Source of the DNA: Heliocidaris erythrogramma
Taxonomy: Eukaryota > Echinodermata > Echinoidea > Camarodonta > Echinometridae
Assembly: GCA_025617745.1 (NCBI GenBank)
Contig: CM046873.1
Location: 27,355,410-27,419,409, forward strand
Direction: 5' to 3'
Length of the DNA: 64,000 nt
Position 1 is the stretch's first letter. Each line of letters opens with the position of its first letter. The notes under the pieces are model-generated. The model was not told where the DNA came from. It was given only the letters and a program-made list of their open reading frames with translations, and did not search any database. Positions 5,625-63,339 of the stretch are shown here, piece after piece. The position numbers and the translations under genes are program-made.

Positions 5625-5658
5625 TTTCCAGTGGAGCTGTGGAAGGCATGGTGACAGT
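5625..5658 (+). CDS. FN3 unit A1, first part (small exon)
   Basis: A 34-bp open segment follows a strong pyrimidine-rich acceptor and ends at gtgagt (5659). It enters in phase 1 and leaves in phase 2, matching the next exon. It encodes SSGAVEGMVTV. It is too short to identify alone and is accepted only because the phases fit. Confidence 0.4.
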
Positions 5659-5724
5659 GTGAGTGATAACTCAAAGTAAAGGACCTACTCTTATTGAAGT
5701 ATTATTTGTGTTCCTGTCTGACAG

Positions 5725-5884
5725 CGATTTCACTCTTGAATTCAACACAAATATTGGTGCCATAAGTGGTTCCTGCCAAGATTCGGGTACATTCAGTGGG
5801 AATCTGTCCCGAGGTGTATATTACGAATTTGAGCTGTTTAAAGGAAACGGCGAGGCGAGAACTCTAGCACCTTACACAGAACAG
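5725..5884 (+). CDS. FN3 unit A1, second part
   Basis: The exon follows ctgacag, enters in phase 2 and is open to a donor at 5885 (gtacaa). The residues FTLEFNTNIGAISGS and then LSRGVYYEFELFKGNG have strand spacing like the later A-type units, with YYEF at the F strand. It ends in phase 0 although the next FN3 exon expects phase 1, so either the donor is misplaced or a small exon is missing. One sequon (NLS). Confidence 0.4.
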
Positions 5885-6206
5885 GTACAAAGCATCTATA
5901 TCTTCATGCACAAAACTCTTTTAATCCCACTGAAATGCTGTGTTAATTGAGAAGTTTAATCTTGTCTACTCCCTGTTTGATCTTGTGGCATACATGTAAT
6001 ATATAATATTGCATCATCGCTATTGCGATAACGCCTTGTTTTTGTTCTGCATTTTCTTATTCTATGTTTCTCTTTCTTTTTCCTTTTTTGACACTTTCCT
6101 GACCTTCAATCTTGGTCAAATTTTCTGGGCATATGGATATGCATGTCTTGATGTGCATAATTGTCTTCTCTAAAAAAATCGCATGTTGAATAACACAAAC
6201 CCACCA

Positions 6207-6369
6207 GGGCGGTATTTCATGTCAATTTCATAAAACATTTTATCAATAACAAATTGCAACAGATCATCTATGACAAATTCGCTCTTTTAATAGCCAATTA
6301 AATGCTATGATTTCTGTAGTTTATATAGTCATTGTGAGTGTTACTGATAACAAGTTTTATGAAACGGGA
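6207..6369. mobile_element. Palindromic MITE, TTTCATAAA family (copy 1)
   Basis: An imperfect inverted repeat of about 160 bp with ends like gtttcataaaacttgttat...ataacaagttttatgaaac and a conserved centre around tctgattggctgagagcaaa. Other copies: 12308-12452, 18449-18597, 40774-40899, 48139-48292, 51135-51276, 56990-57129. Confidence 0.75.
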
Positions 6370-6407
6370 CTCGGGTATTCCGGCATCATGTGCGAATGGG
6401 CATCTAG

Positions 6408-6644
6408 CACTATGAACATGACGAACAAAGAAGCGGACAATTTATGCAGCTCCTCATTGTACCCTTCACAATTGCACTGGTTAAACAAAAGAACATCCAT
6501 TCATTGCTATCCTGTAAAAATATGTAGAACAGGTGTCACATAATAGCAGTGAAGGGATGTCCTTTTGTTTACTAGAGCTATTGTGGAGGGTACAATGAGG
6601 AGCTGCATAAATTGTCTGCTCTCTTTGTCACCGTGTTCATAGTG
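6408..6644. mobile_element. Fold-back MITE, CACTATGAACATG family (copy 1)
   Basis: The ends cactatgaacatg and its inverse (gtgttcatagtg) enclose arms carrying gcagctcctcattgtac and its mirror. The structure is a hairpin over nearly its whole length. A longer copy lies at 47715-47984. Confidence 0.8.
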
Positions 6645-6727
6645 TAGTATATGCATGCACATGTTACATGTGTGCAGGTTTTATGCACGTTTTTTTTTTT
6701 TTTCATTAAATTCTTTACCCTGTTCAG

Positions 6728-7016
6728 ATCCTGCTGTGTTTTTTCGGGGTCTGTGGATGATGACCACAATGCAGACGTCAGCTGAGATCATTTTCGTTTA
6801 CACGGGACTGACCGATGGTATGCTGCTGAATGACCTCCACGGAAGATGAAAATTTCACACCACCAGGACGGCAGTGGCGAGTGTTTGACTTAACTGTCCC
6901 CTTTGAAGATCTCAAGCCATCTACCATGTACAGTCTCTCTGTGAGGAGCCTGCTCAATGCTACAGGAGACTACGAAGAACAATTTGGTCCTGAAATAATG
7001 ACAACCTTCAATACAA
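6728..7016 (+). CDS. FN3 unit B1, reading frame disrupted
   Basis: The acceptor tgttcag (6727) and donor gtatgt (7017) are sound. The 3' two thirds read cleanly as FN3: LTVPFEDLKPSTMYSLSV, then LLNATGDYEEQ, the B-type ending. The 5' part opens DPAVF in the expected phase-1 frame but reaches a stop at 6847-6849. FN3-like residues are spread over three frames between 6728 and 6845, including a GSVDDDHNAD stretch. At least two small indels would be needed. This could be assembly error, an allele, or a decaying exon. Sequons NFT and NAT. Confidence 0.6.
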
Positions 7017-7155
7017 GTATGTTTTCTGTACCCATACATGTACATACATGTAGGTATGGTGTGTGTTGATTTCTGTGTATTTCATATGATTGTATTTTAT
7101 TTAACAGTAAAAAGGTTCAATATTTCAAACTAGTAATGTGATGATGAACTACTAC

Positions 7156-7194
7156 GGGAGGGGGGAGGAGTATGCAGGGGGAGGGGGGAGGGGG
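7156..7194 (+). other. G-run cluster, possible G-quadruplex
   Basis: Five runs of 3-6 G within about 40 bases on the plus strand, with short spacers. This fits quadruplex folding in the transcript or the DNA. Confidence 0.5.
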
Positions 7195-7549
7195 AGTAAG
7201 TAGAGCAGTCATAAGTTCATTTGCTTCAGAGTAGTGTAGCATTCAAAAGTTCTTCGCTATAGATGTTTCAACCCTGATACAGCTGTCAAAGTGAACAGCA
7301 GGGATACCACATTTCAGACAAAAGTAGGAATTCCTACTTTTTCAACATATTTTTAGCCATAGAAAACCATGTTTTATGTACACAAGGGTCCATTCTAGAT
7401 GATTTTTCCTACTTTTTTATTAATTCTAAGTGGCATCCCTGGACAGTGACAGTGAAACAAAGTTATTTTCTAAAGGCTTGTTCAAATATGCTATGGTAAA
7501 CCGCACAAAAAGCATGATATACATGTAGTAATGATAATAATAATAAATT

Positions 7550-7969: not shown

Positions 7970-8056
7970 AAAACCCAAAATTATTTTAAAATGTAAATTG
8001 TATGTCAATGTAACTTTTTATATATTTTTAAAATTACTTGCTAATTACTTAAATAG

Positions 8057-8290
8057 TGCCTCTACCAACTCCTGAGGTTCTCATTATTGAGATGGACAAC
8101 ACTTCATTGGAATTAATCCATGGTGGCACGAGTGCTTCGTTCAACTTCAGCATATCCCCTGACCACGCTGTCATCACACCTGGTGAAAACAACCGGGTAG
8201 TCTTCTCTGGTCTGATGCCAGGAATTCTCTATAATGCATCAATCAATGTCATTGATGAACTTGTCGAGACTTCAGTTCTTCTCAGATTGC
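8057..8290 (+). CDS. FN3 unit A2
   Basis: A single phase 1-1 exon (aaatag / gtaagt) of 78 residues. The B-strand tryptophan is replaced (ASFNFSISPD), while the E-F signature FSGLMPGILYNASI is standard. Sequons NTS, NFS and NAS. It ends LLRLR, like A4, rather than the RT(S/G) ending typical of most units. Confidence 0.88.
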
Positions 8291-8769: not shown

Positions 8770-9081
8770 CTCCATCGAGACCAGTGCCATCTGTTTTGGA
8801 TACCACAGAAACCACGATCACACTGACCATCGTAGCAGGCCCTGGTAGTGCCGACGAGTATGCCATTAGGATTACATCCACCAGCCCGGACGTCTGTCCA
8901 TTCGAAGATACAAGGAACATCACCTTCTTCAGTAGCGGTGTCTATGTCATTGACAATATTCCACCCTTGCTGATGTATGACATAGAGGTCAGGTCACAAG
9001 TTTCAGCAGTGTTGAATGAATCAGGAGCAGTACTTCTAGAAGCATCTTCTAGCCCAGCTTCTGACATCAGTGCATCTACAG
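8770..9081 (+). CDS. FN3 unit B2
   Basis: A 104-residue exon (catttgcag / gtatta), phase 1-1, the longest B unit apart from B17. Strand C reads SADEYAIRI and the E-F turn IDNIPPLLMYDIEV. The B strand has TITLTIVAG with no tryptophan. The F-G loop is long (VLNESGAVLLEASSS). One cysteine (DVCPF). Sequons NIT and NES. Confidence 0.9.
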
Positions 9082-10410: not shown

Positions 10411-10668
10411 ATCCAGTCGCGTTCGATGATTTCACAGTTATCAACAGAACGGATGACAGCATAACACTTTCCTGGTTTTCAAACACCACTTCCACTCTCA
10501 CTTTGACAAAGAGGACTACTACTGAGGAGATGACTGAAACCCTCCTGACCGAAATGGACTGTTCGTCCCCACGAGTAATGGAGATTAGCTTGAGCGATCC
10601 TGGCACCGTATACACCATAGCATACAACCCAGCCTCTTCTGAAGGATTCAATCTCACCACCCGAACAG
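10411..10668 (+). CDS. FN3 unit A3
   Basis: An 86-codon exon (tgccttgcag / gtacaa), phase 1-1. It starts DPVAFDD, has the B-strand tryptophan in SITLSWFSNTT and the F strand in LSDPGTVYTIAY. The turn is SDPG rather than GLxPG. Sequons NRT, NTT and NLT. One unpaired cysteine (MDC). It ends TTRT. Confidence 0.88.
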
Positions 10669-11818: not shown

Positions 11819-12118
11819 ACCCAGGGCAAATCTATAACCTCACCGCATCGCAAGTGAACAAGACATCTATTCAGCTTATGACTTTCCGGCCATCTGTTGG
11901 GGATGCAGATCGTGTTTTAGTGACAGTGACGTCGGTCCAAGATACGAGGTACCTTGCTCCTGGTCAAACTGTATCATTTGAACTTGAGAGTAACCTGCAT
12001 CTCATTTCTGATCTGCTGCCATTCACCAATTACACGTTTTCCGTGACGACTGTTCTGGATGCGACTGATGAATTTGAGGAGCAAGAGAGTGAAGAGTCCT
12101 CGATTAGCCAGAGGACAG
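11819..12118 (+). CDS. FN3 unit B3
   Basis: A 100-residue exon (tttttcag / gtgagc), phase 1-1. It starts DPGQIYNLTAS. The B strand has phenylalanine at the tryptophan position (SIQLMTFRP). The F strand is LLPFTNYTFSV, with a highly acidic F-G loop VLDATDEFEEQESEE shared in style with B1, B7 and B18. Sequons NLT, NKT and NYT. Confidence 0.9.
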
Positions 12119-13075: not shown

Positions 13076-13303
13076 ATCCTCCGACAGGGGACGATATCTT
13101 CGAGTATGCTCGTAATGCTACTGCCATTGAGTACATCGTTGCATCCTACACATCACTCGAACTGGATCTCTCTCCTGTTGACGGTTGGATGTATGCTGCA
13201 TTCCCAGAGTATAGAGTGCTCATTTCCAACTTAGTTCCTGGCCAGCTGTACATTGGAAACATCAGCAGAGACGGCTCACCGCTTCCCATCAGTTTCAGAT
13301 TAC
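13076..13303 (+). CDS. FN3 unit A4
   Basis: A 76-codon exon (ttcag / gtaagt), phase 1-1. It starts DPPTGDDIF. No tryptophan is at the B strand (AIEYIVASY). The turn ISNLVPGQLYIGNIS is canonical. Sequons NAT and NIS. The tail PISFRLR mirrors A2. One of the shortest units. Confidence 0.88.
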
Positions 13304-16170: not shown

Positions 16171-16458
16171 GTCCTAGTGAGCCTGCAGTCACCGTACTCA
16201 ACTTAACAAAGTCCAACATCACCTTAGGTCTCCAGCCTGGGCAAGGTGTACTAGATTTCTACAACATCACTGTGCAATGCACAGATGCTCTCCAAAACAA
16301 CTGTGAATGCCAAGAAACCTACAGTGTGCCAGGAGATACAGAGATGTTTCTCATTGACGATCTCCGACCCGGCGTTGGGTACAACATCAGTGTTATTGCA
16401 TGGGCTGGACCACAGATGGCTGAAAACAGTGTGGAAGTTGCCCTGCAAGAAACAACTC
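16171..16458 (+). CDS. FN3 unit B4
   Basis: A 96-codon exon (attaatatag / gtgagt), phase 1-1. It starts GPSEPAVTV. Leucine replaces the B-strand tryptophan (ITLGLQPGQG). The turn DDLRPGVGYNISVIAW is standard. Three cysteines in the C'-E region (VQC, NNCEC) could form a local disulfide. Four sequons (NLT, NIT, NIT, NIS). Confidence 0.9.
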
Positions 16459-17545: not shown

Positions 17546-17791
17546 CTTCAACTGATGCTGGTAGTTTCACTGTCTTAGACCAGACACCAGATAGTGTGTT
17601 CTTGGCCTGGACAGCCGATGGGCCAGTCAATATCACCATGGAGCGCTGGATGGAAGGAGGGTTCGTCGTCAATAACACGTTTATGTATGATGGATGCTTC
17701 AGCTCCAACACACTGGAGGTCTTTGATCTGAAGCCAGCTACTATTTATCGCTTCAGCATGTCAGAAAGTGTTTTTATTCTTGTCCGAACCG
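17546..17791 (+). CDS. FN3 unit A5
   Basis: An 82-codon exon (ttcag / gtaaga), phase 1-1. B strand SVFLAWTADGP, turn FDLKPATIYRFSM, ending ILVRT. Sequons NIT and NNT. One cysteine (GCF). Its opening DAGSFTV..TPDS resembles A16 (ANGSVAV..STDS), 11 dyads away. Confidence 0.9.
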
Positions 17792-18752: not shown

Positions 18753-19049
18753 ATCCTCCTTCTGTCGAGACTTGTGCTGTGGAGACCACATCATCAGGCT
18801 ACACTTTCACCTGGTTAGCCCCGCCCCCTGGCACCAACGATGGCTACAAGGTGACCGTCACAGATTCACAAGGTGACCTCGTGCAAGAAGAGATGGTTGC
18901 CACTGGAGATGACCTCGAAGTGGTCAAGATCCGGGTCGCCCCGGAAACGGAACTTAACTTTTTTGTTAATTCACTGTTGGCAGTCAGTGACATGGAAAAC
19001 TTCCCTCTGCAGTTTGGTGCCATACCCTGTACTCTCAATGATTCTACAA
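18753..19049 (+). CDS. FN3 unit B5
   Basis: A 99-codon exon (cttaccag / gtgagt), phase 1-1. It starts DPPSVETC, B strand YTFTWLAPPPGT, C strand DGYKVTVTD. The F-strand tyrosine is replaced (ETELNFFV). Two cysteines, near the start (ETC) and end (IPC), could bridge the two ends of the domain. Sequon NDS. Confidence 0.9.
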
Positions 19050-21715: not shown

Positions 21716-21967
21716 CATCCCTGGAACCCGGCGAAGTAGCCCCCGCGAGTGTAACTACCGACAGCATCCCCTTCACTGTGGGTAACGCCAGTACCATTCC
21801 AGAATTCAGTGGTTATAACATCACTGCAGACCCCCAAGGACCTGTGCTCATCTTTGACGAAACCACACTGACTGGAGTCTTCACCAATACCACCCCTGGA
21901 CTGCTTTACACCATCACATCCATCGTCCGAGGCACTGACATCATCTTTACCATCTTAGAACGAGCCA
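21716..21967 (+). CDS. FN3 unit A6
   Basis: An 84-codon exon (tacag / gtaagt), phase 1-1. The unit opens ASLEPGEVAPAS, upstream of any in-frame start codon, so it is easily truncated in ORF-based calls. The B strand is degenerate (SIPFTVGNAS); the turn is FTNTTPGLLYTIT. Sequons NAS, NIT and NTT. Confidence 0.87.
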
Positions 21968-22804: not shown

Positions 22805-23059
22805 AACCAATGCCCCCTGGGAGTGTCAATTTACCAAGTGCTACAGCCACATCGGTTCGTCTTGAATGGGATCCCCCAACGAGGGGCGTTTCCACCTTCT
22901 ACAGGGTGACGATAAACCCGACGATCGACACAGAGCAGAACTTTGTTGAGATAGAGAACCTCCTGCCAGGCACAAACTACAATGTTTCTGTCGTGTCTAT
23001 CAGTGGCACGGGGCTGTATCAGCAAATAAGCGATCCAATCGAGTTTGAGGTGATAACGG
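22805..23059 (+). CDS. FN3 unit B6
   Basis: An 85-codon exon (gcag / gtaaga), phase 1-1, a compact B unit. EPMPPGSVNL opens it; SVRLEWDPP and IENLLPGTNYNVSV are textbook FN3, with F-G loop SISGTG then SDP. One sequon (NVS). It aligns with B17 (EPIPPFNISL, IDNLIPNTEY, TISGAG, SAP) but lacks that unit's basic insertion. Confidence 0.93.
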
Positions 23060-23734: not shown

Positions 23735-23995
23735 CTAATTTGACGACAGGAGAACTTGTCTTTGTGGATGTGACTTCCTCGTCCATAACTGCCCTTTGGT
23801 CTGACACTGGCGCAGGGTCGTATACCGTGATTGTAATGATAGGAATCGGGAGTACTGACCAACTTTCTCTTACGGTTCCTCCAATAGGCAACATGATCAT
23901 TGTAACAGGGGGTGTTCAGCCATCACAGATATACGTGTTTGATGTCTATGATAACAATAATGGCGAATTGGTAGCTAATAATTCTGTTAGAACAA
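23735..23995 (+). CDS. FN3 unit A7
   Basis: An 87-codon exon (gtag / gtgagt), phase 1-1. The strand pair GELVFVDVTSSSITALW is close to A18 (TELVFTDVNSTFFRVWW). C strand GSYTVIVM, F strand VQPSQIYVFDVYD. Sequons NLT and NNS. It ends NSVRTS, like A18 (GSVRTG). Confidence 0.9.
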
Positions 23996-26689: not shown

Positions 26690-26983
26690 ATCCTGAAACC
26701 CCACAGCCACCAACCCTGACCAGCCTTGGACCCTACAGCTTGTCCTTCGAGTGGGCCCCGACCAACACAACATTCTCTGCCTACAGGGTGTACTATGCAC
26801 CCTTCTCATTCCGAAGGGAACTCGTATCCACGATATCCGGTAACAGTGTCGACCTGACGTACAACCAGGAGTGCCTAAGACCAGACACAGATTATATCTT
26901 TGAGATAGAGACTGTCTTAGATGCATCTGGAACATTTGGTGAACAGACTAGCAATGCTGCTCAGTCCATCACAATCACCACAA
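26690..26983 (+). CDS. FN3 unit B7
   Basis: A 98-codon exon (tacccacag / gtaagg), phase 1-1. DPETPQPPTL, B strand LSFEWAPTNTT, C strand SAYRVYYAP, F strand CLRPDTDYIFEI. The loop VLDASGTFGEQ is the best match to B18 (LLRANGPFGVQ), and both have a cysteine just before LxPDT. Sequon NTT. Confidence 0.93.
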
Positions 26984-28033: not shown

Positions 28034-28300
28034 GTCCATATGACAACAATGAGCCTCACATCTCAAGCAGTTCCAACACCACCTTGACTGTCACCTGGCT
28101 GGACGCTGCCTCCAATGGTCAGGAGGTGTGTCTGAAGGAACTCTGCAGCACCCTGCGTGGTGACACGCCCATGTGCCTTTTGACCAACCAGACATGCCCG
28201 CTCTTCTACAACTTTGAGGGTCTGGTCCCTGGCAGGAGATACGTGGTCTACGTGGAATACAATGACGGGACTGTGGAGGATGTCATCTTTACACAGACAA
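28034..28300 (+). CDS. FN3 unit A8, four-cysteine type
   Basis: An 89-codon exon (caacag / gtaaaa), phase 1-1. B strand LTVTWLDAASN, turn FEGLVPGRRYVVYV. The C to E region carries four cysteines (CLKELC, then PMCLLTNQTC), spaced almost as in A19, 11 dyads away. Two disulfides probably brace an enlarged loop. Sequons NTT and NQT. Confidence 0.92.
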
Positions 28301-28635: not shown

Positions 28636-28905
28636 AACCAAATCCTCCAGAGTTCCTCAACGCTACCGCTCTCCGTTCCGACACAATCAGAGTCGTCGTC
28701 TCCCCACCCCAAGGAGAGTTTGACGGTTATGAGCTCTCCTTCTCACCTTCCACCACTGACCCCATCTTGCTTGAACCTGACACCAGGGAGTATACCCTGG
28801 ACAATCTTGAGAGCAACACGCTGTACACCGTCATGGTGTTTGCCTATACTGGAAGCAATGGACTTCGGGTGGAGGGTGATGAGGTCTCTACTACAGTCAC
28901 TACAA
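28636..28905 (+). CDS. FN3 unit B8
   Basis: A 90-codon exon (ttcag / gtaaga), phase 1-1. EPNPPEFLNAT; valine at the tryptophan site (IRVVVSPP); C strand EFDGYELSFSP; turn LDNLESNTLYTVMV. Sequon NAT. Otherwise a regular B unit. Confidence 0.92.
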
Positions 28906-29515: not shown

Positions 29516-29797
29516 ACCAAGCAAATCTTGTGGCTACGAACATCATGACGAACGAGATCATCGTCTCCTGGTCATCAGATACGCTTAATGTCAACTCCTT
29601 CCAGGAATTCCGACTCACCTACACCTCCATGGCGTCTGGTTCGCCCACCATCCCCAAGAACTCCTTGCCTTCCATCAACAATGAGTACGCCCACCCAATC
29701 ACAGACCTGGTACCAGGGGATCTCGTCACCATCAACCTGGAGACTGTGACGTCCAATGGCCAGGCAACGTTGATAGACACCATTGTTCAACGAACAA
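29516..29797 (+). CDS. FN3 unit A9
   Basis: A 94-codon exon (ctcag / gtgagt), phase 1-1, long for an A unit. B strand EIIVSWSSDT, C strand FQEFRLTYTS. Valine replaces the F-strand tyrosine (LVPGDLVTINL). No sequon. A SPTIPK segment and PITDLVPG align with IPK and SISNLIPG of A20. Confidence 0.9.
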
Positions 29798-31495: not shown

Positions 31496-31753
31496 GCATG
31501 GGGGAAATGAACGAGGTCAATATCCGCAACCTTGACTCCACATCAGTCTCCTTCACCTGGTGGGGCACTGGAGACGACAATTTCACTGTCGGTCTCACTC
31601 CCAGCTCACTAGACAGCTGCATGGCAGGAACACCATCCCCGCAGGACGTGATGACCAGAGAAGCGACATTCTATGGTCTAACTCCTGGTGCCGGATATGG
31701 TATCACGGAGGCTGGCTCGCCGCTCAGTGGGGAAGATGCTGAGTTTATAACAG
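31496..31753 (+). CDS. FN3 unit A10
   Basis: An 86-codon exon (gcactag / gtatgt), phase 1-1. VNIRNLDSTSVSFTWWGTGD has two tryptophans. The turn is FYGLTPGAGYGIT. Sequon NFT. One cysteine. The opening GEMNEV..NLDST aligns with A21 (GNGDEV..NVSST). Confidence 0.9.
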
Positions 31754-32724: not shown

Positions 32725-32994
32725 TTCCTGACCAAGTAAGCAACATGCAAGTGAAATTCATCAACTCCAGTGCCGTCACCTTTACCTGGACGGCGCCCTC
32801 TGGCTGCTACGACCGGATTGAGATCAACTACACCCCAGATACTTGCACCAACCCATCACCTATCGTGCTCAATCGCGACGAAGGCAATGAGTACACCCTG
32901 ACACCTCTCCAAGCCAACGAGGAGTACGAGTTGTCCTTTGTTACGCTTCAAATGACAGCGAGAAGCGAGCCCTACGTAGCCAGCGTACGTACAA
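32725..32994 (+). CDS. FN3 unit B10
   Basis: A 90-codon exon (acag / gtaagt), phase 1-1. VTFTWTAPSGCYDRIEINYTP, then LTPLQANEEYELSF and a loop TARSEP. Two cysteines flank the C strand (SGC and DTC) and could pair. Sequons NSS and NYT. C strand and loop align with B21 (YERLEVSYSP, DTRSEV). Confidence 0.93.
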
Positions 32995-33482: not shown

Positions 33483-33740
33483 CGTGCCCCGAAAAAGAGA
33501 AACTCAACGTGGGCTCCGTACAGGCAGACAGTATCTCACTCACATGGGGCAACACCACTGAGGCGGCTGCAACCGGTTTCACCCTCGTGGCCACACCTGA
33601 ATCCTCCACCCCCATCGTGAGGGAGCTTGACCTGTCTGTGTTAGAATACACATTTGTTGGATTAATGAGTGGCGTGGAGTACACCATAGTGCTCTATGTG
33701 AACGGCACCGCAATCACTGATTCTGTCTCTCAGACTACAT
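33483..33740 (+). CDS. FN3 unit A11
   Basis: An 86-codon exon (ctgtag / gtgagt), phase 1-1. The distinctive start ACPEKEKLNVGSV matches A22 (ACSPEGQLHIVSL), both followed by SI...WG and a C strand G-[FY]-T-L. The turn is FVGLMSGVEYTIVL. Sequons NTT and NGT. Confidence 0.92.
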
Positions 33741-35545: not shown

Positions 35546-35809
35546 TTGACAATCTTGTGATGACATCAGCCGTACCTGGTGATACCCAAGCAGTGAGAGT
35601 CTCGTGGGAGAGACCAGAGGGGGCCGCCTACTACAACCTGGTGTACATCCCGGATAACGGCAACTTGACCACGGCCGATCTGACTAACCTCACTGACCAA
35701 TCAGTGACCATTGGTGGTTTGACCCCTGGAAAGAGATACGTATTTATCCTCTCTGTCCACTATATGGATGGACAAAGGGACTTGCTGGCGCAGACCTCCT
35801 ACACTCTCA
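35546..35809 (+). CDS. FN3 unit A12
   Basis: An 88-codon exon (ttcag / gtaagt), phase 1-1. GDTQAVRVSWERPEGAAYYN, then VYIPDNG, turn IGGLTPGKRYVFIL, loop YMDGQ. Two sequons (NLT twice). It aligns with A23 (GDNQNLTISW, GADSY, INF/YNFRL, ADG). Confidence 0.92.
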
Positions 35810-36154: not shown

Positions 36155-36409
36155 GACCAGGGGTATATTCTGCAAGTGCAGAGGCATCTCCTACTACTGC
36201 TGTCATAGTCCTGCAGCCTGGGGAAGGAGTGTATGAAAGGTATGAGATTAGTATATCTCCATCAGGCAGAACTTTTGAAGGTGATCGAGCTGCATTACTT
36301 AGGAGGCGAATTTCGGGGCTTGAACCCAACAGCAGCTACATAGCCACTGTTACTATCAAGACCGGGGATGAAGAAGCAGAACGTATTCCAGATATTCCTT
36401 TTATGACAG
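36155..36409 (+). CDS. FN3 unit B12
   Basis: An 85-codon exon (tcag / gtatac), phase 1-1. SPTTAVIVLQPGEGVYERY has no tryptophan; the turn is ISGLEPNSSYIATV with loop TGDEE. ALLRRRIS is basic but lacks a full furin motif. Sequon NSS. It matches B23 (TTALLTFTPNEGIFDDY, LYPNTMYTAQV). No in-frame ATG precedes the first half. Confidence 0.9.
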
Positions 36410-38043: not shown

Positions 38044-38292
38044 GTGCTCTTGCAATGAACACATTGTATCTGGATGGGAGAACGACAGAGTCTCTTCTTC
38101 TCGTCTGGGCTGCGATCCCCGATACGGACAGATATGCAATTCGACTTGAGGACAGGATATTTGTAACGTCTCTGACTTCATATGAGCTGACTGGGTTAGA
38201 GCCTGGTACCGTGTATAACCCCAACTTGCTCGTCAGGAGGGTTGGAATGACTGAATTTGATGATGTGGATGATGCCCTCTCTGTTGTGACAC
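38044..38292 (+). CDS. FN3 unit A13
   Basis: An 83-codon exon (cag / gtgagt), phase 1-1. SLLLVWAAIPDTDRYAIRLE, turn LTGLEPGTVYNPNLLV, with proline just after the F-strand tyrosine, unusual for FN3. Acidic tail DDVDDA. No sequon. Confidence 0.9.
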
Positions 38293-39199: not shown

Positions 39200-39475
39200 A
39201 ACCGGAACCAGTCTTGTTCTTCGAAGTGAAGGAAATCGTCGGCAACAACGTCACTTTTATCTGGAGTGGACCCCCCTCAAACTTTCATGAGTATTTCCTG
39301 ATTGTTGCACCACAGAATAGATCGTGGATTTTACCCACCAATGAGACTGAGCTCACGATACAGTATGACACAAACGAAGAGTTTCTAGCCACAATCTACT
39401 CTAGTGCCCTGGTTGACACTGGACGCTCTTCTGATTATATGTATAGTGAACCTTTGACTCTGAATGTCATCATAG
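39200..39475 (+). CDS. FN3 unit B13
   Basis: A 92-codon exon (tatctacag / gtgagg), phase 1-1. VTFIWSGPPSNFHEYFLIV. The E-F turn has lost the LxPxxxY pattern (IQYDTNEEFLATIYS), so the domain is diverged in its second sheet. Three sequons (NVT, NRS, NET). No cysteine. Confidence 0.9.
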
Positions 39476-40485: not shown

Positions 40486-40740
40486 ACCCAAGTGAACCTG
40501 GAACTATTGATGTGACAGAGCTGACCTCAACATCCATCTTAATCACATGGACTGAGATTGCGGGAATCACAGACTACATCGTCAACCTCACCTTGGCAGC
40601 CAACAACTCTGAGCTCTTTTCGGAAATTATCCGAGGCTCCCTCATGGCCAACTTCTCAGGGCTGGTGCCGGGAGAGGAGTACATCATAAAGATTGGGCTA
40701 CAGTGCGCAGGAGAAGTCCTCACGCTTCGACAGTTTACAT
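40486..40740 (+). CDS. FN3 unit A14
   Basis: An 85-codon exon (gcaaag / gtaagt), phase 1-1. DPSEPGTIDV gives it a B-like start, but the tail is short as in A units. ILITWTEIAGITDYIVNL, turn FSGLVPGEEYIIKI. Sequons NLT, NNS and NFS. One cysteine. The acceptor lacks a pyrimidine at -3 (aaag). Confidence 0.9.
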
Positions 40741-41267: not shown

Positions 41268-41546
41268 TACCTCTGGAGCCTGTGTGCGCTGTCTTCACAT
41301 GGGTTGCCGAAGACTCTGTCACACTGCAGTGGTCTCGACCTGACGGCAAGCTCTTTGGCTACGAGATCACATACGATGATGGCAGTGGTCCATACACACC
41401 TATTGATGTGTTTGACAGGAACTCAGTGAATCTGGAAAGAACGATTTCTAATTTGATGAACGGACCTGGTGTTGAGGTGAACATCACTACTATTGCGGGG
41501 GCAGGAATGAGCCAGACCAGGAGCAGCCCTGTCATGATCAGTCCAA
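41268..41546 (+). CDS. FN3 unit B14
   Basis: A 93-codon exon (tttgtag / gtgagt), phase 1-1. VPLEPVCAV, VTLQWSRPDGKLFGYEITY. The turn ISNLMNGPGVEVNIT lacks the usual tyrosine; loop AGAGMSQ then SSP. Sequon NIT. One cysteine. Confidence 0.92.
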
Positions 41547-42004: not shown

Positions 42005-42244
42005 GATCCGTTGGCAGTGCCTTCAATATTACGAGCGTGACATCAACCAGCATCACGTTTGGGTGGTACGACCTCCCGGATGCATCTGAGTATGATGTCT
42101 GCATCCAGCCAGCTATTGGGAATGTCACCTGCAGGAACTTGACAGAGAAGACTACGACTTTTACTGACCTCTTCCCAGGTGCGGCCTACACGCTTTCGAT
42201 TGGGTGGGACTCTGCATGTGGAGTATCCCTCACATTTAACACCG
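42005..42244 (+). CDS. FN3 unit A15
   Basis: An 80-codon exon (ccag / gtgagt), phase 1-1. ITFGWYDLPDASEYDVCIQP, turn FTDLFPGAAYTLSI. Three cysteines (DVC, VTC, SAC); the first two lie eleven residues apart in the C' region. Sequons NIT, NVT and NLT. Confidence 0.91.
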
Positions 42245-42860: not shown

Positions 42861-43154
42861 TGCCAAGTAGCCCTGCCAATCTATCTTTGGGTGTCATCTC
42901 TTCCTGCGCCAGTGAAGTCACCTGGGATATCCCTCAAAGTGACTATGACTTCTTTGAAGTGACCTACAGCCCCGACAATGGCTTCACCAGCTCCCCGGCT
43001 CACATCTACCGCATGGACGTAGGGGAGAACGAAACCAGTGTTAAATTTCCTTTCGTCGGCATCCTGCCGGAAACGGATTACAACGTCTCTGTGGTTGCGG
43101 TGTCAGGGGCTCTCGATGTAAGGAGTGAGCCCTCATACATCACTCTGAGAACAG
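42861..43154 (+). CDS. FN3 unit B15
   Basis: A 98-codon exon (cgttgcag / gtaagt), phase 1-1. ASEVTWDIPQSDYDFFEVTY, SPDNG, turn FVGILPETDYNVSV, loop VSGALDVRSEP. Sequons NLS, NET and NVS. One cysteine. The F to G part resembles B4 (GYNISVIAWAG). Confidence 0.93.
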
Positions 43155-43402: not shown

Positions 43403-43663
43403 AACCTCCTGCCAATGGCAGTGTAGCTGTAACTGCGCTGTCTACAGATTCCATTCAGGTTGGATGGGGCAACGACACGCAGGATTATGTTTATATCCGA
43501 TTCAATCTGGATGGTGCAAATGAGACCGTCTGCGAGAATGAATCGCTCTGCTCTGTCGGCAACAGCAGCGAATTTTACAACATCACAGAACTCCTGTCTG
43601 GTCAGAAGTACATCATCTTCGTAGATCAGGGCGGTGTTTGTGAGACCCTACAGCAATACACAC
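43403..43663 (+). CDS. FN3 unit A16, sequon-rich, no in-frame ATG
   Basis: An 87-codon exon (gttctag / gtaagt), phase 1-1. It contains no in-frame ATG, so start-codon-based ORF scans miss it. EPPANGSVAV, IQVGWGNDTQDYVYIRF, turn ITELLSGQKYIIFV. Three cysteines (TVC, SLC, GVC). Six sequons (NGS, NDT, NET, NES, NSS, NIT) make it the most glycosylation-dense unit. Confidence 0.92.
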
Positions 43664-43925: not shown

Positions 43926-44216
43926 GTCCGTTACCACCAGTAGACATAGACACTGCCGAGCGCACACTGACTTCGCTCAATATCACGTGGTCAGACCCAG
44001 GCAACGAGACCATGTTTGACCGTTACTACGTGGCCTATGAGAGGGCGGATGAGCTAGGCAACTTCACCGAGGTGGGGTACTTTTATCCTAATGTGACTTC
44101 GGTCTTACTCGAAGGACTTACACCACGCACCGAGTACCTCATCAATGTAGCGACCGTCGTGGGCGAGGGAAATGCCCAGGCTTTCAGTGATGGGGGATTG
44201 TATCCTACGTACACCG
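43926..44216 (+). CDS. FN3 unit B16
   Basis: A 97-codon exon (cctttag / gtattt), phase 1-1. GPLPPVDI, LNITWSDPGNETMFDRYYVA, turn LEGLTPRTEYLINV, loop VVGEGNAQAFSDGG. Sequons NIT, NET, NFT and NVT. No cysteine. Confidence 0.93.
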
Positions 44217-45435: not shown

Positions 45436-45660
45436 CGGAGGCCAATGAGACCATTACCGTCTTTGAATATGACACGACTAGCATGATGTTTACCTGGCCT
45501 ATTGTGACCTCTGACCTCAATGTCACTGTCTCCATTGTACCCGATGATGGAGTCCTTGATCTGAACATTGGTAACAGGAGTGCTCGGGTAACTGGCCTCA
45601 TTCCTGGGAGACTCTATAACATCAGTGTCTATCCTTTCAACTCCATCTCTCAGAGAACGA
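45436..45660 (+). CDS. FN3 unit A17
   Basis: A 75-codon exon (tccag / gtgagt), phase 1-1, compact. MMFTWPIVTSDLNVTV, turn VTGLIPGRLYNISV, ending SQRTS. Four sequons (NET, NVT, NRS, NIS). No in-frame ATG in the first 15 codons. Confidence 0.9.
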
Positions 45661-46557: not shown

Positions 46558-46902
46558 AGCCTATTCCTCCTTTCAACATCTCGCTCTGCTCGGATGTTGC
46601 TGCCACCTATTTCTCGTTCTGTGTGACATTCACCCCACCGGCAGAAGGAGAGTATGATGCCTTCGATGTGTTCACTATGGACGATTTCATGCCAGTGCAG
46701 TTACGAAAACGGAGACGGCGATCTCCATTGTTCAGTCGATTAGGATTCGACATGGTGCAACGCTTGGATAGAAACGAATTCCAAACCGTCATTGACAATC
46801 TTATTCCAAACACAGAATACGTCGTCCTTCTTGAGACTATTAGTGGTGCAGGGGGTATGAACGAGGAATTCAGTGCACCAGCAGAAACTGTTGGCAGAAC
46901 AT
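46558..46902 (+). CDS. FN3 unit B17 with furin-type cleavage site
   Basis: A 115-codon exon (tacccag / gtaagt), phase 1-1, the longest FN3 exon here. Normal A-C strands (EPIPPFNISL, FCVTFTPPAEGEYDAFDV) are followed by an inserted segment with R-K-R-R-R-R-S-P (46704-46727). The domain then resumes with IDNLIPNTEYVVLL and loop TISGAGG. The basic run fits the R-x-[KR]-R furin rule several times over. Cleavage would fall in the C'-E loop and could split the ectodomain into two chains held by the domain fold. B6, the matching unit 11 dyads earlier, has no such insertion. Two cysteines; sequon NIS. Confidence 0.93.
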
Positions 46903-48310: not shown

Positions 48311-48556
48311 TGATGATCGGAGAAACAGAACTCGTCTTTACGGACGTCAACTCGACTTTCTTTAGAGTGTGGTGGAACCGCATCAGCAATTTCACTGGGA
48401 ACTACACCGTTACCGCCCAGCCTGGTGATCAGCAGATTGTGGTGTCTTACGACTCAATCCCTTACGCTGTCTTTGATAATGTGTCTTCCTCAACCATTTA
48501 TGAAGTAAGCGTTGAAACCCCAGTGGCTCCAGCAGCTACTGGAAGTGTGAGAACTG
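48311..48556 (+). CDS. FN3 unit A18
   Basis: An 82-codon exon (tttcctag / gtgagt), phase 1-1. TELVFTDVNSTFFRVWWNRI, then NYTVTAQPG. The turn FDNVSSSTIYEVSV lacks LxPG. Sequons NST, NFT, NYT and NVS. Closest to A7. Confidence 0.9.
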
Positions 48557-49942: not shown

Positions 49943-50236
49943 ATCCCGATTCGGTCCGAAATCTTGTACTCATGCCCTTTGACGCGATCACACTCATTGC
50001 ATCTTGGGAAGCGCCCGACGTGGTCACCAACTTCAACGAGATTTTGCTTACCCTGTGGACAAATGGTACAGAGGTACGGTCCGCCAGTGTTATGGGCAAC
50101 GTCACTGAGTTCACTTTTGAATGTCTCAAGCCAGATACAGAATACACAGTTGAGATCACCTCCTTGCTGAGAGCGAATGGGCCTTTTGGAGTCCAAAATG
50201 CTACTGAAGAACCACCCAGTGACACTATTTCAACAG
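49943..50236 (+). CDS. FN3 unit B18
   Basis: A 98-codon exon (cttgcag / gtacgt), phase 1-1. DPDSVRNLVL, TLIASWEAPDVVTNFNEIL, turn FECLKPDTEYTVEI, loop LLRANGPFGVQ. Sequons NGT, NVT and NAT. The cysteine before LKPDT and the loop match B7. Confidence 0.93.
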
Positions 50237-50618: not shown

Positions 50619-50915
50619 AGGACCTGCATCCATTTAACGAGTCAACACCAACGGTTCATTACAACTCCATAACCTCTACCAGCATTGCCATCCGCTGGGG
50701 ACGCCTGGGCCAAACTGGCTACAGCGTCTGCCTGGTTGAGTACTGCCGCCAGCAGCTGGACGACCCTGTCTGCCTCACCAATGGTTCTGGCTTGTGCAGC
50801 ATTGAGGCAGAGTTTGGCTCCCTGGCCCCTGGTCAGCTCTACGTTGTGTCCTACGAGGACCCCAATGGAGTGCCCCCCAATGGAGAGCCCATGGAACTTG
50901 AGAAAGTCAGAACAA
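50619..50915 (+). CDS. FN3 unit A19, four-cysteine type
   Basis: A 99-codon exon (attttcag / gtgagt), phase 1-1, the longest A unit. IAIRWGRLGQTGYSVCLVEYC, then DPVCLTNGSGLC, turn FGSLAPGQLYVVSY, loop DPNGVPPNGEP. The four cysteines parallel A8. Sequons NES and NGS. Confidence 0.93.
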
Positions 50916-51951: not shown

Positions 51952-52245
51952 AGCCCTCAGCACCGTCCTCTGTGACCATTGAAGCCGTCAGCTCTCGTCT
52001 GATTGAGATTCGCTGGAATACTCCGCCAAACATTGCTGAGATGGTTCTCGAGTTTTTCAAGACCGATTCTCCAGGAGAGGCGTGGGAGGGGAGGATCGAC
52101 AATGATGGGGAGTACGATATCCATGGATTGGATGCCGACACAAGTTATACTGTTAGGCTAAGCAGCGTTGGAAGGCCTGGGGCTGGCGATGGCAGTGATG
52201 ACGAGCGTCTGTCAGGCGATCCCCTGGAGAGGATTGTCATGACAA
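51952..52245 (+). CDS. FN3 unit B19
   Basis: A 98-codon exon (cctctgcag / gtaagt), phase 1-1. EPSAPSSVTI, IEIRWNTPPNIAEMVLEFF, turn IHGLDADTSYTVRL, then an extended acidic-glycine loop (GRPGAGDGSDDERLSGDP). No sequon, no cysteine. Confidence 0.93.
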
Positions 52246-53228: not shown

Positions 53229-53489
53229 GTGCAAGGATCTTGTCGGTCGTCAACACACCTAATGCCCTCACTTTCCTGTGGGACGAGCAGCCCAACCCTG
53301 AGACTTTCACAGGCTACATCATCACTTCGTCTGACGGTATCATGGAGGTCATACCGAAGCAGAGCGAGGATACATCATATCAAAGATCCATATCGAACTT
53401 GATTCCAGGGCAGCTCTACACTGTCTCTCTCTTCCTCCAGCCCATCACAACGTTTCCAGATCCCCTGGATATGCTGCTGGTCCGCACAG
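53229..53489 (+). CDS. FN3 unit A20
   Basis: An 87-codon exon (ctgtgcag / gtaaaa), phase 1-1. LTFLWDEQPNPETFTGYIIT, turn ISNLIPGQLYTVSLFL. No sequon, no cysteine. The MEVIPK and SISNLIPG parts align with A9. Confidence 0.92.
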
Positions 53490-54335: not shown

Positions 54336-54617
54336 ATCCGAGTCCTCCAAGGTCTCTCCGTGTCATCGATTCCACCATCACCACACTGCGTGTTGAATGG
54401 GACTCACCTGAAAGTGGTCTGTATCGAGGATTTGAAGTGGACATTTCACCAGAAACTGCCCTGCAGGAGCTACCCAGGATCGTGGGTAGTGACATCCGTG
54501 GATTTAGCTTCGTGGGGCTTGAGGACGACACGATGTATACTGTTTCCGTAACAACTATCATGGGGGAAGAAGGATTAGAAGAGAGGAGTACAACGGTTGT
54601 TGAAACGGGAATGACAG
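54336..54617 (+). CDS. FN3 unit B20
   Basis: A 94-codon exon (ctcag / gtaatt), phase 1-1. DPSPPRSLRV, TLRVEWDSPESGLYRGFEV, turn FVGLEDDTMYTVSV, loop IMGEEGLEERS. The GLYRG and IMG elements are shared with B9. No sequon, no cysteine. The first 33 codons lack an in-frame start codon. Confidence 0.93.
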
Positions 54618-56232: not shown

Positions 56233-56439
56233 CTACTGGAAATGGAGATGAAGTGTACCTTCTGAATGTCTCATCAACTGATGCTATGATAGGTTGGACC
56301 ATCCCTGGCTTTGAGGTTGTATCTCTGGATGGAAATGTGATTACACTTTTAGCTATGAGTCCGTACACGTTTCCAAATCTTTTGCCAGGCAGGCAATACA
56401 CAGCCACTGTTGGTAACACTGACTTAACTTTCACAACAG
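56233..56439 (+). CDS. FN3 unit A21, shortest
   Basis: A 69-codon exon (ctttcag / gtaggt), phase 1-1, the shortest FN3 unit in the array. DEVYLLNVSSTDAMIGWTIP keeps the A and B strands, and FPNLLPGRQYTATV keeps E and F. The C' region and the F-G loop are reduced to a few residues. Sequon NVS. It aligns with A10. Confidence 0.88.
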
Positions 56440-57339: not shown

Positions 57340-57615
57340 TTCCCGAAAGGCCAGTTGGTCTTGAGCTAGAGCGGGTTGGACCCTACTCCTTGGAGTGGCA
57401 GGTAGACACGTCCCTCAACAACCTCAACTACGAGCGCCTAGAGGTGAGCTATAGCCCAGAGTCCAGTCAGACAGCCTCTCCCTTTGATATCAGTCGCTGC
57501 ACCGATGGCAATTTCGTCTTGGAAGAGCTACAGCCAGACACCGAATATTCCGTCTCTGTCACCGCAATTTCTGGCGACACCAGAAGCGAAGTTCTTAGGA
57601 GATACGCATTCACAA
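57340..57615 (+). CDS. FN3 unit B21
   Basis: A 92-codon exon (tctatccag / gtaagg), phase 1-1. VPERPVGLEL, YSLEWQVDTSLNNLNYERLE, SYSPESSQTASP, turn LEELQPDTEYSVSV, loop ISGDTRSE. One cysteine (SRC). No sequon. The first 17 codons lie upstream of any in-frame start. Confidence 0.93.
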
Positions 57616-58535: not shown

Positions 58536-58799
58536 CATGTTCTCCGGAGGGTCAGCTTCACATAGTGTCACTTGGAAGCAGTGCCATTGCTGTAGCCTGG
58601 GGACCGGTTGCCAACATCCAGGGCTACACTCTCAGGTTGTATAATACCAATGGTGCCAACATCAGGAACCTATCCCCCCCTGCTAGTGATGATACTGCCT
58701 CATTAGGCACCTTGTCGGCGGCAACAAACTACACTCTGCGACTTTTCATAAGCAGAAACTCTCAAAACGAGGAGACTGATGTTCTAGAGTTCGTGACAG
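58536..58799 (+). CDS. FN3 unit A22
   Basis: An 88-codon exon (tgcag / gttagt, a non-consensus donor), phase 1-1. ACSPEGQLHIVSL, IAVAWGPVANIQGYTLRLY. The turn LGTLSAATNYTLRL has lost the PG. Sequons NLS and NYT. Matches A11. Confidence 0.9.
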
Positions 58800-60289: not shown

Positions 60290-60562
60290 ATCCTGCCCCA
60301 CCCGGCCAAATCAGCATACAGTCTTCAACGCAGACCCGCCTGTCGTTTGCATGGACTGCATCATCCAGCAACTTTGACTATTATGAACTATTCATCTCCG
60401 GTGGTGACATGCCAGAGCCCCGCGCAGTGGGAGTGGTCTACCCCACCGACGGGAACCAATTTGAAGTTGGTGGTCTCCTCCCAGATACAACTTATGTCAT
60501 CAGGATTTATACAGTCTTCTATGGATTGCGTAGTGTCGCTTCAGAAGCTTCTTTCAATACAG
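60290..60562 (+). CDS. FN3 unit B22
   Basis: A 91-codon exon (actgttag / gtaagg), phase 1-1, uninterrupted. DPAPPGQISI, LSFAWTASSSNFDYYELFIS, VYPTDG, turn VGGLLPDTTYVIRI. No sequon, no cysteine. It is the counterpart of B11, which carries an extra intron between NFD and YE. Confidence 0.94.
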
Positions 60563-61200: not shown

Positions 61201-61455
61201 ATGAACAAATCCTGGAGTTTAGGGTTGGTGACAACCAGAACCTTACAATCTCATGGGCAGACCAAGATGGCGCAGACTCCTACCGACTCATCTACACAAC
61301 CACCAACAGAGATACTAACAGCATTGCTCGTCTACAAGCCTCTACGTCCCTCAGTATCGACAACCTTCTAGCAGGTGCCATCTATAATTTTAGGCTCATT
61401 ACCATCGCGGCTGATGGCACTGAAATGGAGGTTGCAAATGCAGACTTTGTACAGA
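61201..61455 (+). CDS. FN3 unit A23
   Basis: An 85-codon exon (aaacacag / gtaaga), phase 1-1. DEQILEFRV, GDNQNLTISWADQDGADSYR, turn IDNLLAGAIYNFRL, loop AADG. One sequon (NLT). Matches A12. Confidence 0.92.
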
Positions 61456-61694
61456 GTAAGATCCATATTGAAATTGTTCTCGTTAATTCTCTCTCTGCCT
61501 CTGTTGTAAATGTAAGACAAGTTATGGTAATTGAACATCAGTTCCTAAAAGTCAGTAAAAACCTGTGAGGATAATTATTTTTGATATTTGGAGATGTATT
61601 GATTTGAGCATGTGTGTGAATATATCTATTCATCAAAAACTTGTCCATTGATTTATAAAATAATGAATGTTAAACAAATAAAGTCCAAACTGTA

Positions 61695-61758
61695 CTTTGC
61701 TTCAGTTTCAAGTTTTTTTTCAAGTACAGTCCAAACTGTACTTGAAACTGAAGCAAAG
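61695..61758. repeat. Perfect 18-bp hairpin
   Basis: ctttgcttcagtttcaag (61695-61712) and its exact inverse (61741-61758), separated by 28 bases that include a tandem agtccaaactgtact. Confidence 0.9.
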
Positions 61759-61841
61759 ATTCTTATGATTACTACTCAGCCTTAGATGTAATAGTCACGC
61801 ATATATATTCCTTAAGTTGTTGTTGGCTCTGAAATCCACAG

Positions 61842-62111
61842 GTCCCTTAACACCATCTGCCGGAATATCAGTCCTCGAAGCCACAACTGCCCTACTCACC
61901 TTCACACCGAACGAGGGGATCTTTGACGACTATGTGGTCATGTTGTCTTCCCCGACGGATAGCTGCGGTGCACGCCAGCCAGTCTTTACTCTGCCTCGTG
62001 AGGCCTGCCCAGAGCTCGTATTGACAGATCTGTACCCCAACACCATGTACACAGCCCAGGTCTTTGCTAGGACCGGAGAGAGTGGTTTCAGCCTTCCCAG
62101 TGAAACCATCT
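61842..62111 (+). CDS. FN3 unit B23
   Basis: A 90-codon exon (atccacag / gtaagt), phase 1-1. GPLTPSAGIS; no tryptophan (TTALLTFTPNEG); C strand IFDDYVVMLSS; turn LTDLYPNTMYTAQV; loop RTGESG. Two cysteines (DSC and EAC) in the C'-E region probably pair. It matches B12, which lacks the cysteines. Confidence 0.93.
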
Positions 62112-62453
62112 GTAAGTCTTGTGTACCATTTTCATTCTTGGGGCCTATGTGAGCCCCATGCCTACCACAGAATTTGTACTCAGTCTGATCCATAAGTGTG
62201 CACCTTAATATAAACTTACTGAAACAGAAATACCCAAGGCAAACTACAGTATGTGTATAGTTAGCTTGTGTAATGTGTCTCACAGGACATTTCTATTGAC
62301 TCTAGGACCACATCCTTCGGTGGACAACTACCACTGCTTTTTCAATTTATTAGGTACATGCTCCTGTGGTTGTCTGAGGGCATTCTGGTAAATTATGAGG
62401 GGGTAGCTGTCATGGAGATGATACTCCATGGGGTAGTCATTCTGATATAATTA

Positions 62454-62709
62454 GGCCCCCCCCAAAAAAAAAATTGTTGTATTGGCGTAACGGGTCACTG
62501 AAAAATAGGGTAGGTAGGTCGGGATTTTTTTTTTTTTTTTTTACGACAGTATAGTACATAATACACGCAGCCAGTTCTGTCCACAACACTTTCGGGTTTT
62601 TCGATCGCGATCGCAAAGGCAGCACGATACGCGATATCGATAGCCCAAAAAAAAATAAAATTTTAGGGTCGGGCGGGTTACGCCAATACAACAATTTTGG
62701 GGGGGGGCC
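62454..62709. mobile_element. MITE with GGCCCCCCCC...GGGGGGGGCC ends
   Basis: Ends continue aattgttgtattggcgtaac and gttacgccaatacaacaatt, a perfect 20-bp inverted repeat. The inside has a poly-T run and a cgatcgcgatcg palindrome. Confidence 0.85.
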
Positions 62710-62715
62710 TTATTA

Positions 62716-62975
62716 TACCTCCGCCAAACGAAGTTTGAAGGGGGTAGAATCAGTCGACGGTTGGGCGGTCGGTCGGGAAATTTGGTACACACACATTGGT
62801 CTTGGTGGGAAGATGTGCAAGACATATTTTTTGGATGTGTCGGAAGCTGCGTTGCCATGGAAACGGCATATCTATGGCAGTAAATCAGGGAAAAATCTTG
62901 CGGATCGAACTACTTTCTCAGTTTTCGACCAAAAGTCAAGAAAGGCTGTTGTCACGGGGCAGGGGTATTAATCAT
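62716..62975. other. Repeat-like segment with CCTCCGCCAAACGAAG start
   Basis: tacctccgccaaacgaag and gtcggtcggga resemble the left part of the 19367 element class; the right end is unclear. Confidence 0.35.
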
Positions 62976-63057
62976 CATCTTCAGTGATATTTCTAGTTAT
63001 CATGAGCTGTTGTAAGGACTGTAAGAATTAAAACCACTTTGTATTCTCTTCTTCCAG

Positions 63058-63339
63058 TTGAGAATTTCACAACCAATATCCTATCGGAGGGTGATCTCCA
63101 GATCAGCAGGATCCGCTCCAACTCTATAGAGATCATCTGGAACACGACGGTGGTTGACGAATATCTCTTGCATCACAGTGGCCCTGATGGTAATGTCATG
63201 TCTGACATTGTCCCCTATATGGAGCTCAATTATTACACCTTCAGCGAGCTTGTGCCTGGTGTAGAGTACAGTATCAGTGTCATCAGCTTGATCAATAGGG
63301 AGGATCAGATGGAAGTGCTGGGAGTGACTCAGTATACAA
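63058..63339 (+). CDS. FN3 unit A24 (last exon in the window)
   Basis: A 94-codon exon (cttccag / gtgagt), phase 1-1. A longer A-strand lead (VENFTTNILSEGDLQISRI), IEIIWNTTVVDEYLLHH, turn FSELVPGVEYSISV, loop INREDQ. Sequons NFT and NTT. A donor follows, so the gene continues past the window; the alternation predicts a B unit next. Confidence 0.92.

Follow-up and report, generated by a model that had tools for sequence, protein, structure and literature searches.

A two-type alternating array of fibronectin type III domains in Heliocidaris erythrogramma, probably the ectodomain of a giant R3-like receptor tyrosine phosphatase

In genes of the R3 group of receptor protein tyrosine phosphatases, most fibronectin type III (FN3) domains are each encoded by one exon with a phase 1 intron on either side (1:1); an inner phase 2 intron interrupts some of these domains, as in PTPRQ and the R3 genes of Ciona, and divergent R3 phosphatases of sea urchins have been published (all from the available part of PMC5336234). 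Human R3 members carry 8–18 FN3 domains by UniProt count (available part of PMC10815196). Here we analysed a 64,000-nucleotide stretch of the sea urchin Heliocidaris erythrogramma, the window (positions 27,355,410–27,419,409 of contig C21, CM046873.1), and also read 40 kb upstream and 100 kb downstream of it. On the plus strand of the window, 47 FN3 units of two types, A and B, occupy positions 5625–63339, and exons further downstream encode a membrane helix and a tyrosine phosphatase domain. We consider it very probable that the window covers the central ectodomain of a giant R3-like receptor protein tyrosine phosphatase, with about 71 FN3 domains outside the cell and one phosphatase domain inside.

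Exons were modelled by chaining candidates with AG/GT borders and phase 1 at both ends, scored by an FN3 profile made from the window itself, and doubtful units were inspected by eye. Units 3–47, comprising 45 units in 46 exons because an intron splits unit 22, all have AG/GT borders and each run from phase 1 to phase 1. Their spliced frame of 12,129 nt (4,042 codons) holds no stop, and intron length ranges from 125 to 2,867 bases (median 900, 45 introns). The first two units are irregular: unit 1 consists of two exons whose join ends in phase 0, a mismatch with the phase 1 unit 2, and unit 2 is frameshifted in the assembly, its second half from 6867 being used for scoring. Both were excluded from the trees, the offset tests and the label-free tests. 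The unit 2 frameshift (6728–7017) may reflect either a sequencing error or decay of the first units. The units are as follows; the rows for units 3–47 are based on the exon model, leave-one-out profiles and the label-free axis.

5625..5884, +, FN3 unit 1, A-like (by 4.1 bits), exons 5625–5658 and 5725–5884, phase 0 end
6728..7017, +, FN3 unit 2, B-like, frameshifted
8057..8290, +, FN3 unit 3, A
8770..9081, +, FN3 unit 4, B
10411..10668, +, FN3 unit 5, A
11819..12118, +, FN3 unit 6, B
13076..13303, +, FN3 unit 7, A
16171..16458, +, FN3 unit 8, B
17546..17791, +, FN3 unit 9, A
18753..19049, +, FN3 unit 10, B
21716..21967, +, FN3 unit 11, A
22805..23059, +, FN3 unit 12, B
23735..23995, +, FN3 unit 13, A, start of the block that recurs as units 35–46
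26690..26983, +, FN3 unit 14, B
28034..28300, +, FN3 unit 15, A
28636..28905, +, FN3 unit 16, B, query unit of the predicted B model
29516..29797, +, FN3 unit 17, A by position, B by leave-one-out score
30395..30685, +, FN3 unit 18, B
31496..31753, +, FN3 unit 19, A
32725..32994, +, FN3 unit 20, B
33483..33740, +, FN3 unit 21, A
33866..34790, +, FN3 unit 22, B, exons 33866–33956 and 34609–34790 with a phase 2 intron within the domain
35546..35809, +, FN3 unit 23, A, misplaced in the window tree
36155..36409, +, FN3 unit 24, B
38044..38292, +, FN3 unit 25, A
39200..39475, +, FN3 unit 26, B, misplaced in the window tree
40486..40740, +, FN3 unit 27, A
41268..41546, +, FN3 unit 28, B
42005..42244, +, FN3 unit 29, A, query unit of the predicted A model
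42861..43154, +, FN3 unit 30, B
43403..43663, +, FN3 unit 31, A
43926..44216, +, FN3 unit 32, B
45436..45660, +, FN3 unit 33, A
46558..46902, +, FN3 unit 34, B, with a basic insert RKRRRRS
48311..48556, +, FN3 unit 35, A, start of the second copy of the block
49943..50236, +, FN3 unit 36, B
50619..50915, +, FN3 unit 37, A
51952..52245, +, FN3 unit 38, B
53229..53489, +, FN3 unit 39, A
54336..54617, +, FN3 unit 40, B
56233..56439, +, FN3 unit 41, A
57340..57615, +, FN3 unit 42, B
58536..58799, +, FN3 unit 43, A
60290..60562, +, FN3 unit 44, B
61201..61455, +, FN3 unit 45, A, misplaced in the window tree
61842..62111, +, FN3 unit 46, B
63058..63339, +, FN3 unit 47, A; the gene model runs on past the window with units 48 to about 71, a helix and a phosphatase domain

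The first-pass annotation of the window had described every odd unit as A and every even unit as B, in strict order over all 47 units. For units 3–47 this description holds throughout: the label-free first principal axis of all-against-all scores matched parity in 45/45 units, and the suggested all-against-all comparison placed the nearest neighbour of every one of the 45 units in its own class. Leave-one-out profiles returned the expected type for 46/47 units, with unit 17 wrong and unit 1 right by 4.1 bits alone. With 23 A and 22 B units, strict alternation is one of C(45,22) = 4.1e12 possible orders. The two types also differed in features named by the first-pass annotation, namely exon length (mean 254.3 nt for A, n = 23, and 285.4 nt for B, n = 22; Mann-Whitney p = 1.1e-5) and a leading proline, which is the first full residue in 22/22 B units vs 6/23 A units. 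A B exon is longer than both flanking A exons in 16/22 cases, indicating that length is part of the signal and not the whole of it. The separation into two clades was recovered in part: in the window tree the A/B label needs 3 changes vs about 15 when shuffled, but B26, A23 and A45 are misplaced and the backbone is weak. A single A clade was not rejected in this tree (approximately unbiased test, p = 0.451).

FN3 units continue past 63339 and beyond the window. Profiles trained on units 3–47 typed units 48–64 in strict alternation (17/17) and units 48–66 as predicted in 18/19 cases, unit 65 being a tie that fell the wrong way by 0.2 bits and unit 66 being right. Over units 3–66, the label-free axis agreed with parity for 62/64 units (units 55 and 56 fail), and nearest neighbours were of the same class for 62/64; the second half of unit 56 alone entered these comparisons. 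Joined, units 3–55 give 4,763 codons and units 57–66 give 928 codons, both free of stops, and phase 1 flanks were found for 45/45 of units 3–47 and 18/19 of units 48–66, the first exon of unit 56 being unsure. About five FN3 domains (67–71), four of them split in the splice model, follow unit 66, so that the gene model counts about 71 FN3 domains in all; it also includes a membrane helix and a single detected tyrosine phosphatase domain. The FN3 exons, the helix and the protein tyrosine phosphatase (PTP) exons lie in this order on a single strand, and we infer that they form one transcript. The downstream features, in window coordinates, are:

99,675..99,758, +, membrane helix, the sole strongly hydrophobic stretch between the last FN3 domain and the phosphatase
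103,571, D-Y-I-N-A motif
104,703..104,837, +, phosphatase exon
107,373..107,530, +, phosphatase exon
108,390..108,534, +, phosphatase exon

Pfam Y_phosphatase matched these three exons with E values of 7.8e-16, 1.7e-11 and 3.1e-10, aligning to profile positions 41–80, 131–176 and 178–221 of 234. A whole-genome search with PF00102 returned the same three places, with one set here among the matches listed, and the 204 kb read, scanned on both strands, contain a single WxD-G-P loop and a single CSAGxGRTG motif. The sequence of the catalytic loop is WTD, and HC stands in one exon with AGVGRTG in the next; on the presence of these motifs, the phosphatase is likely to be active. Because the short exons fail to place the domain inside the R3 group, we call it R3-like. 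Units 22, 56, 61 and 63 are each split by a phase 2 intron at almost one position.

The alternation recurs at a second locus, a set of FN3 matches at about 15.10–15.155 Mb of contig C21, 12 Mb from the window, of which 15.100–15.130 and 15.132–15.152 Mb were read. Phosphatase matches lie at 15.231–15.237 Mb, about 80 kb beyond this second array. It has 34 units, and 33/34 are of the expected type, provided that a single B went undetected between units eight and nine. The exception, unit q11, is almost tied, scoring 1.2 bits higher as B (A 32.8, B 34.0 bits); it was set to A by order and also lies on the A side of the label-free axis. With labels set by order, that axis separated 34/34 units, and nearest neighbours were of the same class for 30/34. 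In a tree of 97 units from both loci, from which the partial second-locus unit q17 was left out, the A/B label needs 4 changes vs about 32.6 when shuffled and the locus label 29, so that, on sequence relationships, the two types appear to have arisen before the two loci separated.

Other FN3 matches were also seen. On the minus strand of C21 at 12.716–12.873 Mb, several score equal to those at 15.10–15.155 Mb, which points either to an inverted copy of the second array or to a haplotype left unpurged. A third phosphatase locus (C21, 31.03–31.08 Mb), tried as an array, yielded one weak A and one B. Tandem FN3 matches at 32.2 Mb, tried as a young dyad array, were likewise rejected, since the 10 kb read holds a single B-like FN3 in five copies and no match to A; Tandem Repeats Finder (periods up to 500) gave no repeats there. 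From this stretch (L015, C21:32196000–32205999) on to 32.229 Mb, near-identical FN3 matches recur every ~1.68 or 2.2 kb, by appearance a young expansion or an assembly effect. A genome search with a single unit as protein matched itself alone.

AlphaFold models built from the window's A and B alignments (on units 29 and 16, respectively) reached a predicted local distance difference test score of 91.2 for A and 96.3 for B, each with all seven FN3 strands, and their best matches in the PDB were FN3 structures (E = 1.0e-5 for A, 2.2e-6 for B). The F–G connection has 5 residues in the A model and 11 in the B model, in agreement with the longer F–G loop earlier ascribed to B. At E ≤ 0.01, PF00041 matched 15/23 A and 19/21 B units, the split unit 22 being absent from the B alignment, which includes 21 of the 22 even units 4–46. 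Across both loci, proline is the first residue in 48/49 B vs 15/49 A units, and glycine follows L-x-P in 42/49 A vs 13/49 B units. The segment from strand F to the end is longer in B in the window (p = 2.8e-6), in units 48–66 (p = 0.023) and at the second locus (p = 6.4e-7). As a sole classifier, segment length was rejected: the best F-to-end cut was correct for 21/23 A and 16/22 B in the window, 8/9 A and 6/10 B in units 48–66, and 17/17 A and 13/17 B at the second locus.

Two control arrays scored B throughout, namely a dense FN3 array on contig C4 (15/15; assumed to be titin-like, its identity unconfirmed) and an FN3 array near phosphatase matches on contig C7 (5/5), indicating that B acts as an ordinary FN3 domain and that A is the unusual one. 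B is thus a canonical FN3 with a leading proline and a long F–G loop, and A, as modelled, is a compact FN3 with a short F–G hairpin. In the FN3 topology, the F–G and B–C loops lie at the N-terminal pole. Taken with this topology, the leading proline and long F–G loop of B would sit at the A-to-B junction, which suggests that the A-to-B and B-to-A junctions differ.

Comparison of units at fixed offsets pointed to block duplication. In the window, offset 22 stood out (z = 4.28; 1/1000 permutations, uncorrected for 44 offsets), with units 13–24 matching units 35–46 and all twelve pairs from 13–35 to 24–46 positive. Local runs at offset 4 (units 3–5 with 7–9) and offset 10 (units 43–48 with 53–58) point to further block copies; gene-wide, these two offsets are inconspicuous (z = 0.6 and 1.4). 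The last 17 units of the second locus are collinear with units 14–30, a score reached by 0/1000 permutations, and the next best placements of this block start at unit 46 (32 units further along) and unit 36 (22 units further along). The permutation test there covered the 17-unit block only, the 9- and 8-unit blocks being merely placed. The best 25 matches of a nucleotide self-comparison (matches >120 bases) were satellites and dispersed repeats, with no FN3 exon copied together with its introns, suggesting that the duplications are old. Units of the same class share 13–33% identity with the reference unit. The FN3 pair stands as the repeating module. The earlier proposal of growth by two-exon duplication agrees with the even exon numbers copied, but the visible copies are many-exon blocks, not two-exon steps.

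Several observations weigh against a receptor phosphatase ectodomain made of regular A–B pairs. Deep nodes are unresolved in both the window tree and the 97-unit tree. Over units 3–66, offset 22 is still the top offset, with z = 3.59, a value between the 95% (3.14) and 99% (3.68) points of the null distribution of the highest z among 49 offsets, and in the 17-unit block a unit's own partner is its best match in 3/17 cases and among the best five in 10/17. At the second locus, two A units are adjacent at 15.1115 and 15.1175 Mb, and no B was found in the 6 kb between them; a missed B was assumed, and this could be a true break. Past unit 66 the order is lost, units 67–69 scoring B with the second exon of 67 undecided, and the last membrane-proximal domains match both the A and B profiles poorly. 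The first exon of unit 56, probably at 74,164–74,254 in window coordinates, was found by pattern alone. Searches with the phosphatase exons return a wide range of classical PTPs, headed by R2A and other tandem-domain receptors, and give R3 no preference. An N gap, a duplicated segment and the frameshifted unit 2 disturb the 5' end. A mirror test, which correlates A–A with B–B similarity, favoured neither an A-then-B nor a B-then-A register: r was 0.145 for A(n)–B(n+1) (p = 0.020) and 0.223 for B(n)–A(n+1) (p = 0.0008) in the window, vs 0.159 (p = 0.0004) and 0.085 (p = 0.041) gene-wide, and among four wider control pairings +5 and +7 were also significant (p = 0.002 and 0.012) and +3 and +9 were not. 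Finally, a dyad doubled five times already yields 32 dyads, which makes unbroken parity weak evidence for selection.

The alternation may be purely historical, an ancestral A–B dyad having been copied in blocks in few events, with neither selection nor a special interface, and we give this account close to an even chance. The 22-unit repeat and the second-locus collinearity require few events, the mirror test favours no pairing register, and the 25 best self-matches show no recent duplications. Gain or loss of a single unit is frame-neutral yet order-breaking, and at 13–33% same-class identity there has been a long time for such events; nevertheless, there is no clear break in units 3–66 (unit 65 being the tie), and parity is also kept at the second locus, if one unit was missed. 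The local runs at offsets 4, 10 and 22 further suggest several events rather than few, although those at 4 and 10 are weak gene-wide.

A structural dyad under selection, in which the leading proline and F–G loop of B would stiffen the A-to-B junction, set it apart from the B-to-A junction and produce a filament with a two-domain period, is a tentative but serious possibility. It fits the type-specific proline and the glycine after L-x-P at both loci, the longer F-to-end segment of B in all three sets and the position of the F–G and B–C loops at the N-terminal pole, but the B–C loop shows no clear difference in length (p = 0.064, 0.52 and 0.19) and neither register is favoured. With similar caution, and at somewhat less than even odds, we propose a giant receptor phosphatase family whose ectodomain is a polymer of an obligate A–B module, selection purging gains and losses of single units and keeping only even-numbered duplications.

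That the array belongs to a conventional long adhesion or matrix protein built of FN3 domains, resembling fibronectin, tenascin or titin, with the phosphatase as a neighbouring gene, appears improbable. The profiles do match multi-domain fibronectin and titin chains best, in a database (PDB) that favours many-domain chains; the A profile matches a PTPRJ chain at 1.4e-14 and the fibronectin and titin chains, with more domains, better (best 1.5e-32). Nevertheless, 2/23 A units match the Dep-1 FN3 family (best E = 3.4e-4), and the PTPRJ membrane-proximal domain (PTP_tm, PF18861) gives a weak match just before the helix (E = 0.0038; 17.9 bits, under the cut-off of 26.3). The single-strand order of FN3, helix and PTP exons also argues against two genes, and the dense C4 FN3 array is without the A type.

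An annotation or assembly artefact, to which the N gap (500 bases, 3896–4395), the duplicated segment at 1–3895 and the unit 2 frameshift might point, is scarcely credible given 4,042 codons without a stop over 46 exons, the uniform unit phase and the identical pattern at the second locus, and is contradicted for units 3–47. The features upstream of the gap are:

1..3895, +, segment with ~97% identity across 3.8 kb to a stretch lying 35.1 kb upstream, stopping precisely where the N gap starts
2128..2247, +, EGF-like exon, phase 1:1 (Pfam EGF, E = 6.4e-9), possibly an N-terminal portion of the gene
2738..3004, +, 88-codon exon without a Pfam match at E ≤ 0.01

Judging from this identity, the segment is likely to be a second haplotype or an assembly duplicate, and the EGF-like exon and the exon at 2738–3004 are therefore uncertainly linked to the FN3 array.

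Further observations concern single places in the gene region. The RKRRRRS insert of unit 34 resembles a furin-type cleavage site, and by eye no second unit with one was found in the alignment. An intron carries a tandem repeat with a period of ~170 bases at 19445–20540. Two candidate exons between units 35 and 36 (48742–48948 and 49175–49534) were discarded as not FN3; they overlap a repeat. Downstream of the phosphatase, two exons (L010 and L011; window coordinates 119480 and 129080) bear a WxDGxP...W signature like that of C-type lectin domains, and retroelement-like frames lie between (112–121 kb).

For a giant R3-like receptor phosphatase, we infer an ectodomain descended from an A–B dyad, a canonical FN3 (B) joined to a compact derived FN3 (A), which would have lengthened through the copying of blocks of even unit number, so that two kinds of domain junction would alternate along the rod. 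An FN3 domain is about 3 nm long, and a rod of ~71 such domains could exceed 200 nm if extended. The protein would most likely act either as a very tall surface phosphatase whose length gates the access of the catalytic domain to contacts, a role suggested for CD45 and CD148, or as a bridge between cell surfaces, a role suggested for PTPRQ on hair-cell shafts. Such a phosphatase would either be excluded from close contacts or bridge surfaces, and its ectodomain would be long enough for testing length-based models of receptor exclusion. If the A–B module is indeed obligate, the rod would have a two-domain period with A-to-B and B-to-A junctions of different build. Since single-unit changes are frame-neutral, the array also offers a natural series for testing pairwise constraint on tandem arrays.

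The first-pass annotation knew of no described family with this architecture. The downstream exons lead to an R3-like receptor tyrosine phosphatase, so that this part of the claim falls away. As for the alternation itself, searches of an open-licence library, which leaves out the majority of subscription journals, turned up no account of receptor phosphatases with FN3 pairs in strict alternation. Like the R3 members PTPRB, PTPRJ, PTPRQ, PTPRO and PTPRH and fly PTP10D, the gene model has multiple FN3 domains, one helix and one detected phosphatase domain, and like R3 genes in the available part of PMC5336234 it encodes its FN3 domains mostly in single exons of phase 1:1, some with an inner phase 2 intron. 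Its WTD in place of WPD in the catalytic loop is shared with Sea urchin_4 in the same text (PMC5336234), and its phosphatase domain, like those of the divergent sea-urchin R3 phosphatases as far as described there, is near no single vertebrate R3 type; orthology to these published proteins is a lead. Unlike human R3 members, with 8–18 FN3 domains (available part of PMC10815196), it would have ~71, about four times the human maximum of 18, and it shows an A/B alternation, a two-type order common to two loci, for which no description in R3 members was found. A tall ectodomain over a phosphatase is also described for CD45 and CD148 (PMC10815196, in the part available), the function suggested here being read from architecture alone. 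The nearest fixed-order FN3 case that we have seen described is the titin A-band, where, in the available part of PMC10665226, FN3 types (A, B and C) follow a fixed order in super-repeats grown by block duplication. Titin differs in being a muscle protein with interspersed Ig domains, whereas here every exon chosen for units 3–47 encodes FN3 and a phosphatase closes the gene model.

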